From: a virus
IMG/VR virus record: IMGVR_UViG_3300021478_000084
Coordinates: 1 to 34,203 of that record
DNA length: 34,203 nucleotides
Direction: 5' to 3' (one strand)
The notes under the pieces were generated by a model that searched no databases, was not told the DNA's origin, and was given only the letters and a program-made list of their open reading frames with translations. Made by a program: the position numbers and the translations under genes. Positions 14,930 through 22,394 of the stretch are shown here, piece by piece; within the stretch, counting starts at the first letter, position 1, and each line of letters starts with the position of its first letter.

Positions 14930-17506
14930 CTACACTCCCTCGGGCGGCAGCGGCGGCGCTTCGTTGGGCGCGGGAGCCGTCTCCGGCCCCTCGCTCGGCA
15001 GGTTGCGCAGGACGGAATCGATCCCGGCCTGATCCGCGTTGCGCTGGTGCTTCTCGCGCTCGACGCGCTGGGTCATGATATGCCGCAGGGTGTCGGCGTG
15101 CTCGCTCGCGTGGTGGCGGTGACTGTCGGCGATCTCGCTTGCGTGGTGGCGGGTGTTTTCGGCGGTGACCTTGAGCATGGTCTGCCGCTCCTGGCTCTCG
15201 ATCTTGGCGGCTTCGAGCTGGCCCTTCTGGGTGACGGCCTGCTGCTCGACCTGGAGCTTCGCCGTGTCGATCTGGTGCTTCGACTGCTGCGCCTGCTGTT
15301 TCAGTTGCAGCTCGGCCTTCTGCTGCTCGAGGATCGGGTCCTGCTGTTGCTGCTGTTGTTGCTGCTGCTGGTCCTCGGCCTGATTCTGCTGGAGCAGCTT
15401 GCTGCTCGCCTCCTGCACGAGGCCCGATAGCTCGTTCTCCGCATCCGCCGGTAGGCGCGCGCCCAAAGGCGGCAGCTGCGTGCCCAGCTTCTGCTGGATC
15501 TGGCTTCTGTACTCGTAGGCCATGTGCTCGTTGAGGTGCGCCCACATGGCCTGGGTGATGGACGGCCCGAGCGGGTTCTGGCCGAGCGCGGATTTGGTCG
15601 AGGGGTCGTTGAGGAAATTCTGATGCACCTGGATGTGCGCCATGTGGTTCTGCCACTCGAAGGCCTTGACCGGCTTCGAAGTGACCAGCGCCATGTTCTC
15701 GGCCACCGGGTCCATCGGCTCGGCGGCGGTCTTGTCGGGCACGATCTGCGCCGAGTTGTCGATGCCAAGGACCTCGAGGCAGCTGCGGTGCAGGAGCGGC
15801 AGGTCGTAGAGCTGCGGGGCTTGCGAGCTGAGCTGGATCGCGGCCTGATACTGCATGACTCTTTGGGCCATGGTCGAGGCTGCCGGATCAGAGACCGGCG
15901 TGACCGTGATCAGCTCGTTGTAGTCGGCCACCTTGATGTCGCGGCCCAGGCCGCCCGGCGGGTCGTACTCGTACTCGGGCGGGGTGTGGTCGCGGATGAT
16001 CTCGGCGATCAGGCTCAGCTCCCGGGCGAGCGCGATATGCATGCGGGCCTGCACCGCCGTGATCACTTCGGTGGCGCGCTCGATGAGCGCGAGGATGGTG
16101 CCGACGGGCGCGTTCTGCGCGCTGGTGGTGATGTCCAGCTCGGCAATCGAGGCGAAGCTCTTGCCCTCTTCCACCAGCATCTGGAGCAGCTGGAACAAAA
16201 CCGCCGACGGCTCCTTGTAGGGCAGGAATGCAATCGAGTCGAGGATCTTTCCGGCGGGCACGTCGACGTCCCGAAATTCTCCGGGCTGGATCGGGTCGTT
16301 GTCGCCCTTGATGCGCAGCTGGCGCGACTTGAGGCCGCCCGGCAGGTTGCTCAACGTGCCCGCGTCTACCAGCTGCCGCAGAATGCTGGTCGTGGAGTGG
16401 CCGATGCCGCCGATCAAATGGATTAAGCCCAAGCCGTAGGCCCCCTTCCAGGGGACGTAGCGGTAATGCACCCAGCTCAGCACCTTGGCGTGGCTCTCGT
16501 CGCCTTCGCGCCAGTTGCGGTAGATCGAGAGCACCGCGCTACTGGCCTCGTCGATGGTGACGACGTAGGGCTTCGAGCTGCCGTCGATGGCGAGGTTGGT
16601 GGTGCATTCCCACAGGGTCAGCAGCTCGTTGCGCGAGTAGCTCGGGCCGATGCCGCTCAGCCGCTGGACCTTCTCCTCGATGCGGTCGGTGGTGAGGGTT
16701 GCGTTGCGGAACAGGGTCACGTCGCGGTAGAAGCCGATCTGCTGCAGCTCGATGATGTCGCCGTAGGCCTTCTTCATGACGTGCGTGTAGCGCGGGCACG
16801 TCTCGAGGTTGGGGAAGCCGTAGGGCATCAGGAAATCGTTGGCGGGCACGTACTGCGCGACAGGCCGCTTCAAGAGCGGATCGTAGTAGACCTTCTTGAA
16901 GGCCGAGCCGTCCACCGGGATGGCGAACAGGAGCTGCTCGGTCTCGTCGCGATACTCCAGCATCTTTTCGGTGAGCCAGAAGTTGATGTCGTCGCTGACC
17001 CTTTTGGCTTGCGCGATTTTGGCCTGATTGGATTCGCCGACCACCTTGGCGGTGGCGGGGCCGGTGGGCGGAAACAGGCGCGTGATGCATTTGCTCTGAA
17101 ACCGGACGCTGGCTTCCATGATCATCGGATGCACGACGCCGCAGGCCCCGGGCCAGGGCGTGGTGCGCAGCTCGTCCTTGATGCCGAGCAGGTCCATGCC
17201 CTTGGTGAGCGCGTCTTCCCAGTCGCGGCGGCCCTGCTTGTCCTCGTCGATGGCGTAGCGGATGTCGCTTGAGATCTGCGCGAGCAGGTTATCGGGGATC
17301 ACCTCGGCGAGGTTCGTATCGAAAGGCGCACTGGCGACGGATTCTTCCACCGACGGCGGTTCGCCTGCACCTTCGAGGTAGACGTCCACACTGCCATCGG
17401 AATTTTCGATAGAGAAGGCGTTGGGATCAACCGGCACTGAGGCCTGGGCAAGGCCGGTCGATCCCAGGCCATTGGAAAGTGGCGAAACCAATGGCCGGTC
17501 AATCAT
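14930..17506 (-). CDS. Portal protein (858 aa)
   Basis: The portal is the dodecameric DNA channel at one capsid vertex. Supporting features are the N-terminal ISSDIRYAIDEDKQGRRDWEDALTKGMDLLG and PWPGACGVVHPMIMEASVRFQSK. They are followed by VDGSAFKKVYYDPLLKRPVAQYVPANDFLMPYG and CPRYTHVMKK, then HYRYVPWKGAYGLGLIHLIGGIGHSTTSILRQLVDAGTLSN, and GTILALIERATEVITAVQARMH. These are typical of large podovirus portals. The C-terminus is a long Gln-rich coiled coil with a ten-Gln run (residues 713-722, bases 15341-15370) and RHHASE repeats; it may form the long portal barrel inside the head. The start is ATG 17506. GAGGGG lies 12 bases upstream, an unusually long spacing produced by an 11-bp tandem duplication. 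The gene is on the strand opposite to terL and the capsid gene. Confidence 0.93.
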   Translation of the reverse strand: MIDRPLVSPLSNGLGSTGLAQASVPVDPNAFSIENSDGSVDVYLEGAGEPPSVEESVASAPFDTNLAEVIPDNLLAQISSDIRYAIDEDKQGRRDWEDALTKGMDLLGIKDELRTTPWPGACGVVHPMIMEASVRFQSKCITRLFPPTGPATAKVVGESNQAKIAQAKRVSDDINFWLTEKMLEYRDETEQLLFAIPVDGSAFKKVYYDPLLKRPVAQYVPANDFLMPYGFPNLETCPRYTHVMKKAYGDIIELQQIGFYRDVTLFRNATLTTDRIEEKVQRLSGIGPSYSRNELLTLWECTTNLAIDGSSKPYVVTIDEASSAVLSIYRNWREGDESHAKVLSWVHYRYVPWKGAYGLGLIHLIGGIGHSTTSILRQLVDAGTLSNLPGGLKSRQLRIKGDNDPIQPGEFRDVDVPAGKILDSIAFLPYKEPSAVLFQLLQMLVEEGKSFASIAELDITTSAQNAPVGTILALIERATEVITAVQARMHIALARELSLIAEIIRDHTPPEYEYDPPGGLGRDIKVADYNELITVTPVSDPAASTMAQRVMQYQAAIQLSSQAPQLYDLPLLHRSCLEVLGIDNSAQIVPDKTAAEPMDPVAENMALVTSKPVKAFEWQNHMAHIQVHQNFLNDPSTKSALGQNPLGPSITQAMWAHLNEHMAYEYRSQIQQKLGTQLPPLGARLPADAENELSGLVQEASSKLLQQNQAEDQQQQQQQQQQDPILEQQKAELQLKQQAQQSKHQIDTAKLQVEQQAVTQKGQLEAAKIESQERQTMLKVTAENTRHHASEIADSHRHHASEHADTLRHIMTQRVEREKHQRNADQAGIDSVLRNLPSEGPETAPAPNEAPPLPPEGV

Positions 17507-19925: not shown

Positions 19926-20215
19926 CCTTCCCGCCGATGCGCCCGCAGCTCGAGATCCAGCTCAAGCACGACATGCTGATGTGCCTGATGGGCGACTCGA
20001 GGCTGCTCCAGGCCATCGTTCCCCGGCAGTATCACGCGGCGCTCGCCATGGCGACGGACGCATTGTGCTGGGTGCTCCATCACGACGTGGAGAGCCACCC
20101 GCACTCGCATGCCGGGGATTTCGCGCAGTGCCTGAAAGATATTCAGGAAGGGCTGGAAAGCATCGGTGGTCCGTTTGAGCCGCCGCCCGATACCGAGTAC
20201 GTCGTGGAGGAATGA
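19913..20215 (+). CDS. Hypothetical protein (100 aa)
   Basis: ATG 19913 has GGAGG eight bases upstream. ATG 19922, giving an ATGA overlap with the preceding stop, is an equally good start and removes three residues. The product is helical (LEIQLKHDMLMCLMGDSRLLQAIVPRQYHAALAMATDALCWVL) with a His-rich turn (HHDVESHPHSH), then an acidic C-terminus. The next gene overlaps its stop. No family is recognised. Confidence 0.65.
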   Translation: MAGMTFPPMRPQLEIQLKHDMLMCLMGDSRLLQAIVPRQYHAALAMATDALCWVLHHDVESHPHSHAGDFAQCLKDIQEGLESIGGPFEPPPDTEYVVEE

Positions 20216-20610
20216 TGCCCCGCTACCCCAAGCAGCCGCTCGAGGACAAGCTCGCCTGGATGCGCGACCGGCAGAACCAGAAGAAGGCCGAGGAGGATCT
20301 GCGCGCCAGGGAGGAGACCCGGCGCGCGCAGGTAGCCAGCGGGGCATCCTCCCCGGCGGAGGCCATACTGCGCGATCTGCTCCAGACCCTGGCGGCGCAG
20401 CGCCAGCCGGTGCGACCGGCACCGGCGGTGACGCGGCAGATGCTGCGCGTCGGTCAGGTGGCGGAGATCCTGTCGGTCTCGGCCCGGACGGTGCAGCGCT
20501 GGTTCGCCGACCGGGCCGTCATCGTCCAAGGGCCTACCAAGACCACCATGCTGATCCCCCAGCAGGCCCTGGACGACTGGTTGCGCGAGCATGCGCCGAA
20601 GGTCAGTTGA
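20212..20610 (+). CDS. Excisionase-like / MerR-type HTH protein (132 aa)
   Basis: The N-terminal half is charged and helical (about residues 10-40). Residues 77-127 form a compact HTH of the excisionase/MerR (HTH_17) type: MLRVGQVAEILSVSARTVQRWFADRAV, a short wing with TTMLIP, then QQALDDWLREHAPK. The gene is convergent with and overlaps the integrase gene by eight bases. A recombination directionality factor (Xis) for that integrase is the natural reading. A lysogeny regulator is the alternative. ATG 20212 and 20215 are both possible starts. Confidence 0.75.
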   Translation: MMPRYPKQPLEDKLAWMRDRQNQKKAEEDLRAREETRRAQVASGASSPAEAILRDLLQTLAAQRQPVRPAPAVTRQMLRVGQVAEILSVSARTVQRWFADRAVIVQGPTKTTMLIPQQALDDWLREHAPKVS

Positions 20611-21880
20611 CGCTCGCGGCTTCCGCCGAGGCGCAGGCTTCGGCGAAGTTCGCGGCCTGCTTGGCGGCGGCCTGCCGGTTCTCGACGGCTTCCTGCATGC
20701 CGAGCACGTAGGGCGCGTAATACTTCTGGGTGGTGGCGATGGTGCGGTGGCCGAGCATGCGCCGCACGTCCTCGAGCGAGAGGCCCAGGTTGAGCATGTT
20801 GACCGCGAAGGAGTCGCGGAAGCGGTGCGGGCGCAGCGAGCCCTCGATCCCGAGCAGCACGCCCAGCTCGCGCAGCGGCGTGTCGAGCGCGATCTTCAGG
20901 TAGTTGTTGTGATCCTTGCGGGAGCCGTCGAAGAACGGATACATGCCCGCGCCGGGCTGGCTCGGATCGCCGCGCCACTTGAGGCAAGGCAGGGCGCGCA
21001 GCCGGTCAACCAGCGCCTGGGGCAGGAAGCAGACCACCTCATCGCTGGTCTTGACCTGCGCGGTGATGTATCTGCCGCCATGCCGCGTGTTCACGATCCA
21101 GTCGGGGCGGAAGATGAGGGCGTCACTGCGGCGCAGCCCGGTCTCGTACATCAGCCACAGCATGGTGAGGAAGGTGTCGGGGTGGCGGAGGAGCGGGTTC
21201 CCCCGGCGGATCTTCTGGCGGGGCAGCTGGCCGCGCACGAAGGCCGGAACGGCTTCCTGAATGCGCAGCCAGTTGGCGTTGCCCTTGCGGTCGAGCGGCA
21301 GGGTGGCAATGCCTTTGTCCTGCTTCTTGCCCGCCATGATGTCTTCCTTGGTCAATTTCTTTTCGGTGATCGCCTCGACCGGCTTCCAGGGGTTCTTGAC
21401 GAGGTCGTGAAAATTCACGCAGTAGTTGAAGAGGCACGAGGTGTACTTGCGCCAGTTATGGATCGTGTTCAGGCTCTTCTTCCGCCAGCCCTCCTGCAGC
21501 TCGTTGAGGTGCTGGCTGGTGACGTCCTTGACGAAGACCACGCCCTTGGCGGTGAGCGGTTCGATCAGCACGTGCTTGACCGAGGAGTAGGCCTGCCATG
21601 TGGGCGAGTCCTCGACATACCTCCCTTGCCCCAGCCAGAGGTTGTAGGCGTCGATCAGCTTCAGAGCCTCGGGCTCCTCGGGGGCCTCCTTCCTGGGCGG
21701 CCACTCGGTGACCTTCTCGAGTTCGATTACCCTGGCTTCGGCGGCCTGCCGGGTGAGCTTGTCGACCTTACCATAGCGGTCGTAGACGGCGATGTTGATC
21801 GTGTGGCGCTTGATCTTCACGCCCATGTTATTCTTTCCCTCGACGTGATACCAGGGGCCTCGGATCTTCAGTTTCAGCAT
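20603..21880 (-). CDS. int: Tyrosine recombinase (phage integrase, 425 aa)
   Basis: The open frame starts at 21925, but ATG 21880 has GGGAG six to seven bases upstream. The N-terminus has an arm-type DNA-binding look (WYHVEGKNNMGVKIKRHTINIAVYDRYG). A SAM-like core-binding domain follows (LIDAYNLWLGQGRYVEDSP...). The catalytic domain has all expected residues: Arg250 (ETGLRRSD), Lys277 (VKTSD), His352-x-x-Arg355 (RPHRFRDSF), His378 (GHRTIATTQKYY) and the nucleophile Tyr387. The length is normal. It catalyses site-specific integration and, with an Xis, excision. The upstream leader contains two interleaved inverted repeats that could control translation. Confidence 0.93.
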   Translation of the reverse strand: MLKLKIRGPWYHVEGKNNMGVKIKRHTINIAVYDRYGKVDKLTRQAAEARVIELEKVTEWPPRKEAPEEPEALKLIDAYNLWLGQGRYVEDSPTWQAYSSVKHVLIEPLTAKGVVFVKDVTSQHLNELQEGWRKKSLNTIHNWRKYTSCLFNYCVNFHDLVKNPWKPVEAITEKKLTKEDIMAGKKQDKGIATLPLDRKGNANWLRIQEAVPAFVRGQLPRQKIRRGNPLLRHPDTFLTMLWLMYETGLRRSDALIFRPDWIVNTRHGGRYITAQVKTSDEVVCFLPQALVDRLRALPCLKWRGDPSQPGAGMYPFFDGSRKDHNNYLKIALDTPLRELGVLLGIEGSLRPHRFRDSFAVNMLNLGLSLEDVRRMLGHRTIATTQKYYAPYVLGMQEAVENRQAAAKQAANFAEACASAEAASVN

Positions 21881-21976
21881 CAAAATCTCCCTTGCTTGCC
21901 GGACGTTTCTCGTCCAACGAGCCAATCCTACCAGGATCTGATGCTGAAAACAAGCTACTTATTGCTAGCAAGCAAG
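21872..21976 (-). promoter_or_regulatory. Integrase leader with interleaved complementary segments (possible pseudoknot) or integrase arm sites
   Basis: In minus-strand order: CTTGCTTGC (21976-21968), TTTCAGCATC (21949-21940), GCAAGCAAG (21899-21891, abutting the GGGAG ribosome-binding site) and GATGCTGAAA (21881-21872, containing the ATG). The first pairs with the third (9 bp) and the second with the fourth (10 bp). A GGACG-N5-CGTCC hairpin (21915-21901) lies between. The topology a-b-a'-b' would be a pseudoknot in RNA. In DNA the same repeats could be arm-type recombinase or Xis sites. Confidence 0.6.
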
Positions 21977-22145
21977 AACGTCTTGTTCTGGAACCTGCAA
22001 TTAAGCGCCTATGCCTTATTGATTCTACGGCTTAAGGCGTATCTTACATCACACGCAAAAACTACAAGAGTGACTGGTTCTTCAAACTTGCTGGACAAAT
22101 TTTAGCCAAAAGGGAGAGACGTGTCTTATTTGGGTAGGGCTGGGT
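21950..22145. other. AT-rich non-coding region upstream of int: candidate attP/regulatory region
   Basis: This stretch is clearly less GC-rich than its surroundings. It contains the palindrome TTGCTAGCAA (21962-21971), AGAAC-N5-GTTCT (21975-21989) and the shared box AACCTGCAAT (21992-22001). It also has TTAAGC/GCTTAA (22001-22006, 22030-22035) and GCCTTA/TAAGGC (22013-22018, 22033-22038). Dense short repeats next to an integrase are what an attP with arm sites looks like. The crossover core cannot be chosen without a host sequence. Confidence 0.45.
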
Positions 22146-22394
22146 CTAGTCGAAGTCCTTCGACTCCTGGCGCGCGATCCCGGCGTTGGCCCACATCACG
22201 CACTCCTCGAGCTTGGTCAAAGCGAGCGACCGCTCGCGCCGGTCGGGGCACAGCTCGACGATGAGGAGGGCGAGCGCCTTCGCCTGATCGCGGAGCTTCT
22301 GATAGCGCGCAGGCTGATCGCCCTTCGGTGCGTGGAACGTGAAGTCGCCCTCGATCCGCTCCACGAGCATCTTGTCGGTGGCGCTGAGTGGCAT
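22146..22394 (-). CDS. acb2: Acb2-type anti-CBASS cyclic-nucleotide sponge (Acb2/Tad1 hook domain, 82 aa)
   Basis: The sequence matches the Acb2/Tad1-hook family pattern: VERIEGDFTFHAPKGDQPARYQKLRDQAKALALLIVELCP, then RRERSLALTKLEECVMWANAGIAR. Characterised Acb2 proteins are small helical proteins that assemble into hexamers. They bind and sequester cyclic di- and trinucleotides, which blocks CBASS effectors; Tad1 relatives sequester Thoeris signals. The length and the RERSLALTKLEE...MWANAGIAR signature are normal. GGAG lies five bases upstream of the ATG, which follows the partner gene stop by one base. The usual FxYHxPK here reads FTFHAPK, with Phe for Tyr, which could affect ligand choice. 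The function is inferred from the family. Confidence 0.85.
   Translation of the reverse strand: MPLSATDKMLVERIEGDFTFHAPKGDQPARYQKLRDQAKALALLIVELCPDRRERSLALTKLEECVMWANAGIARQESKDFD

Follow-up and report, generated by a model that had tools for sequence, protein, structure and literature searches.

The integrase gene and its surroundings

The window, by which we mean the whole stretch of 34,203 nucleotides analyzed, carries on its minus strand a gene, int (20603..21880, with its ATG at 21880), whose 425-aa product is, to judge from its sequence, a tyrosine (phage) integrase. This product matches PF00589 in Pfam (E 8e-17) and PHROG 1 (E 7e-25), and its residues R250, H352, R355, H378, and Y388, which make up the R...HxxR...H...Y signature, are invariant between it and two relatives. 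In the structural model of the integrase (overall pLDDT 65), residues 3-55 form an N-terminal beta-beta-beta-alpha fold with pLDDT values of 72-84; the alignment of the model with lambda Int (1z1g) covers 405 columns, yet the TM-score is low (0.36-0.42). We predict, with moderate confidence, that the N-terminal unit resembles arm-binding domains. A Shine-Dalgarno sequence, GGGAG (21891-21887, minus strand), stands 6 nt ahead of the int ATG.

Directly upstream of int, on the same strand, lies a gene for an Acb2/Tad1 hairpin-domain protein (22146-22394; PF24729, E 1e-20; PHROG 1454). Members of the Acb2/Tad1 family are cyclic-nucleotide sponges that counter CBASS/Thoeris defence, and DNA 70% similar to this gene is also found upstream of int in a related contig, L002. 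On the other side, a plus-strand gene encoding an HTH_17 protein (20212..20610; PF12728, E 1.7e-7) is convergent with int, and the 3' ends of the two genes overlap on opposite strands, an arrangement that L002 shares; this protein could be an excisionase or recombination directionality factor. Further along the minus strand, the portal gene (14930-17506) encodes a protein with 30-40% identity to the portals of the Pelagibacter phages HTVC023P and HTVC027P, Planktothrix phage Pag-Yong1, and Caulobacter RW phages. An AT-rich intergenic leader of 265 bp (21881..22145) separates the Acb2/Tad1-like gene from int, its GC content being 0.41-0.5 compared with about 0.65 in its surroundings, and it is this leader that our study concerns.

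Repeats and sites in the integrase leader

The earlier note on this DNA had described two perfect complementary pairs of 9 and 10 bp, interleaved in a-b-a'-b' order between 21872 and 21976. Our analysis reproduces the pairs, their order, and their place, with the correction that b/b' is 11 bp long instead of 10. Read along the minus strand, the segments are a, CTTGCTTGC (21976-21968), b, TTTCAGCATCA (21949-21939), a', GCAAGCAAG (21899-21891), and b', TGATGCTGAAA (21882-21872). It had also been said that a' abuts the Shine-Dalgarno sequence and that b' contains the start codon; both statements are correct, as the last base of a' is the first of GGGAG and the int ATG (21880-21878) falls inside b'.

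The commonest 8-mer of the leader is CCAGCAAG, with five copies when up to one mismatch is allowed, a number reached by 3.5% of shuffles. One of these copies lies on the upstream side (22087..22094, minus strand), where the motif count marks it as a further arm-like sequence; two overlapping copies lie in a, where they are probably arm-type, and two more overlap in a', where they are probably arm-type copies of the P' side. The final copy stops 10 nt short of the int ATG. The density of CTTGC in the leader equals the highest value reached in the window. It is important to note that the enrichment of the arm motif is modest (p ~0.035) and is in part the same information as the a/a' complementarity. 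Between a and b there is an IHF-like site, AATAAGTAGCTTG (21951..21963, minus strand), with one mismatch to WATCARNNNNTTR; 13 IHF-like sites of such quality occur in the 34 kb, so this one is weak when taken alone. We found neither a tRNA fragment nor a core of another kind in the leader of the window, and comparison by DNA similarity with the collections of plasmids and phages identified no attB.

A promoter candidate for int, TTGTTT-N17-TAGGAT with an extended -10 element (TGG), is located at 21925..21953 on the minus strand, with its predicted start at about 21918. This candidate was picked after the fact by a simple pattern, and the combination TTGNNN-N17 plus TGnTAnnnT has a single occurrence in the window when both strands are counted. 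It spans b, which lies within its spacer, and it falls between a and a', so an RNA made from it would lack both a and b. A transcription start downstream of 21940 had been named by the earlier note as a result that would count against its proposal, and the predicted, unmapped start at about 21918 is of that kind. Two other weak promoter-like sites are present further upstream, and for that reason a longer RNA could also be produced.

attP anatomy in related phages

Relatives were chosen by their portal protein, and those used share 59-79% identity. In these portal-related phages, differing tyrosine integrases occupy the same slot, upstream of the portal gene; at least three of the portal relatives carry tyrosine integrases, although many such records are about 60 kb long. 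A search for close relatives of int itself in IMG/VR together with 85k genomes gave only those of L002 and L007 (36-38% identity), L002 having the closest full-length relative of the integrase (37%). No close relative of the window leader was present in the collections searched, and the int leaders do not align.

Two of these leaders have a well-defined organization. That of L003 consists of two copies of TGGGGCAAT, the 3' end of a tRNA-Ser, AATCAACAACTTA, and two more copies of TGGGGCAAT, with the int start 17 nt later; the corresponding sequence blocks are TGGGGCAATTTGGGGCAAT, GTTCGAATCCCACCCTCACCGCCA, AATCAACAACTTA, and TTGGGGCAATTTGGGGCAATG, followed by int, and GTTCGAATCCCACCCTCACCGCCA matches the end of tRNA-Ser genes, including one that ARAGORN calls as a tRNA gene. 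The leader of L010 contains copies of GGGCAGAT, a tRNA 3' half, AATCAATAACTTA, and two copies of GGGCAGAT, with the int start about 20 nt later; its tRNA half is recognized by the Rfam tRNA model (E 0.0011) and resembles a Methylobacterium tRNA-Asn in its T arm and at its 3' end. Both AATCAACAACTTA and AATCAATAACTTA are exact IHF consensus sequences, and L008 has an exact IHF site as well. On the strength of this sequence anatomy, the L003 and L010 leaders are attP sites whose second arm group stands 17-20 nt before the int start. Their cores, derived from tRNA 3' ends, are L003:6254-6277 (tRNA-Ser) and L010:6490-6556 (tRNA-Asn-like), and the exact IHF sites come directly after them.

Repeats upstream of int and shortly before it are also present in L002 (CTTGCA, similar to the motif of the window) and in L007 (TGTAC). 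The integrase relatives in L008 and L016 show no clear arms, and their starts are uncertain. Since the arm copies of the relatives are mostly direct repeats, the conserved property is the repetition of a DNA motif and not the pairing of RNA. We also searched IMG/VR for the exact b...b' pattern; it gave two matches, both in unrelated genes, at least one of them tape-measure-like, and was discarded.

Interpretation of the leader

The interleaved pairs, given their length, had been judged unlikely to have arisen by chance in so short a region, and for the 105-nt stretch by itself this is right: interleaved pairs of at least 9 bp appear in 1 of 20,000 dinucleotide shuffles, and an arm of at least 11 bp in 20 of 20,000. 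The judgment does not extend to the window, which holds 33 perfect inverted repeats of at least 9 bp within 130 nt, enough for an interleaved pair to be expected in about half of all cases, and three of at least 11 bp compared with 2.2 expected. An interleaved pair of at least 9 bp is present in 40% of block-shuffled windows, and in 6.7% of them there is a pair in which an arm measures at least 11 bp, while 0.9 Mb of related phage contigs yields 0.50 interleaved pairs per 34.2 kb. Consequently, a claim of rarity needs backing from position or conservation. An interleaved pair that merely happens to fall at int, with b/b' in particular having no function, would agree with these frequencies and with the lack of a counterpart in the int leaders of the relatives; we nevertheless consider it unlikely, given the local rarity of the pair, its position in a non-coding control region, and the coincidence of a/a' with the most repeated motif of the leader.

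The earlier note had further proposed that a/a' and b/b' form a pseudoknot over the int start, which a ligand, a protein, or temperature would open to switch translation. The order of the segments and the lengths of the loops between them (18, 39, and 8 nt) would allow such a structure, and G-U pairs extend a/a' onto the Shine-Dalgarno sequence. However, in the best nested fold of this RNA b is paired to b', UCCU is paired to the Shine-Dalgarno sequence, and a' is left in an inner hairpin. This fold has a minimum free energy of -41.9 kcal/mol (z -2.7, equaled by 0 of 200 shuffles), whereas the energy of the pseudoknot, roughly estimated in the manner of Dirks and Pierce, is -28 to -34 kcal/mol. 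The nested fold is thus better by about 8-14 kcal/mol, a difference that is a computed estimate only, and in the computed fold a/a' and b/b' therefore compete and do not cooperate. Rfam gives no match in the int leader at gathering or permissive thresholds, no int leader of a relative contains a perfect pairing of at least 7 bp reaching the int start, and an interleaved pair is not unusual across the window as a whole. These results speak against the proposed switch, and we regard the pseudoknot as very improbable. An ordinary nested hairpin, needing neither pseudoknot nor ligand, would be compatible with the computed energies: on RNA begun upstream of about 21950, the b-b' and UCCU-Shine-Dalgarno pairings would lower int translation, and transcripts begun near the promoter candidate would escape it, so that translation of int would depend on transcripts from its own promoter. 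With the Shine-Dalgarno sequence and the AUG paired, opening the int start costs 12.5-14.5 kcal/mol for an RNA whose first base is 21960 or lies farther upstream, compared with 4.6 kcal/mol for one begun near 21918-21920. Yet the higher cost ranks just fifth among the 23 gene starts examined in this GC-rich phage, and the int starts of the relatives range from 2.6 to 14.8 kcal/mol without a common fold, which makes this hairpin quite doubtful as an explanation. We give very little credence to a lock sensitive to integration, in which a and b of a read-through RNA would fold over the int start, until recombination at a core within the leader, or upstream of it, took them out of the transcript; if it were true, int translation would differ between phage and prophage, on a sequence that also bears arm sites.

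The reading that we favor, with a probability of roughly 0.6, is that the leader of the window belongs to the lambda/KplE1 type of attP and int control regions and that a and a' are inverted copies of an arm-type site. The paired repeats are better understood as protein-binding DNA sites, or partly as chance, because the leaders of the relatives, by their anatomy, are places where phages recombine into their hosts and bind integrase. Of what had been proposed for this DNA, the possibility of arm sites is accordingly the better-supported half: the same leader in relatives combines arm repeats with the 3' end of a tRNA and with an IHF site, although no core was found in the window and its IHF-like site deviates by one mismatch. 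According to this attP reading, the 265-bp AT-rich leader would serve both purposes together, and the CTTGC/AGCAAG repeats, including a and a', would be arm-type sites for the N-terminal domain of the integrase. The putative arm sites flank the promoter candidate (21953-21925) and the IHF-like site, and hence integrase bound to the arms could repress its own gene; expression and recombination would then share one sequence. The RNA complementarity of a and a' would exist because the two arm groups stand inverted. The arm sites leave b/b' unexplained, and this pair may be a further protein site, may be due to chance, or may form a modest hairpin when read-through RNA is made.

A region with this double role has been described for intS of prophage KplE1, where attL overlaps the int promoter and the integrase represses its own gene, and such an overlap between attL and an integrase promoter has been reported as widespread (PMC2951348). 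Like that region, the window has arm and IHF-type sites, putative in our case, in the approximately 200 bp directly before a tyrosine integrase gene, a promoter candidate among the putative arm sites, and a gene for a candidate directionality factor nearby; it differs in that this candidate is an HTH_17 protein and not TorI, and in that the core of the window was not located. The likeness to lambda attP lies in the arm-like motifs on two sides, the IHF-like site, and an integrase with a catalytic domain and a predicted N-terminal unit similar to arm-binding domains. In lambda, it is the 3' end of int that faces attP; in the window, by contrast, the 5' end of int faces the leader, and no core was identified. 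Compared with the attP sites of L003 and L010, the window leader occupies the same slot before int, and its arm-like repeats, as theirs do, end 10-20 nt ahead of the int start; those sites, in contrast, have tRNA 3' ends, exact IHF sites, and evenly spaced direct repeats, whereas no tRNA was found in the window leader and its arm-like copies lack the spacing of about 10 bp seen in both relatives.

These observations indicate that, when RNA segments ahead of an integrase gene are strikingly complementary, the cause can be DNA arm sites in inverted orientation. They also give an attP layout, in the order arms, tRNA core, IHF site, arms, and int, for environmental phages of about 60 kb that are related by their portal proteins to Pelagibacter and Caulobacter phages, and this layout, together with the tRNA cores of the relatives, aids the prediction of their hosts and integration sites.
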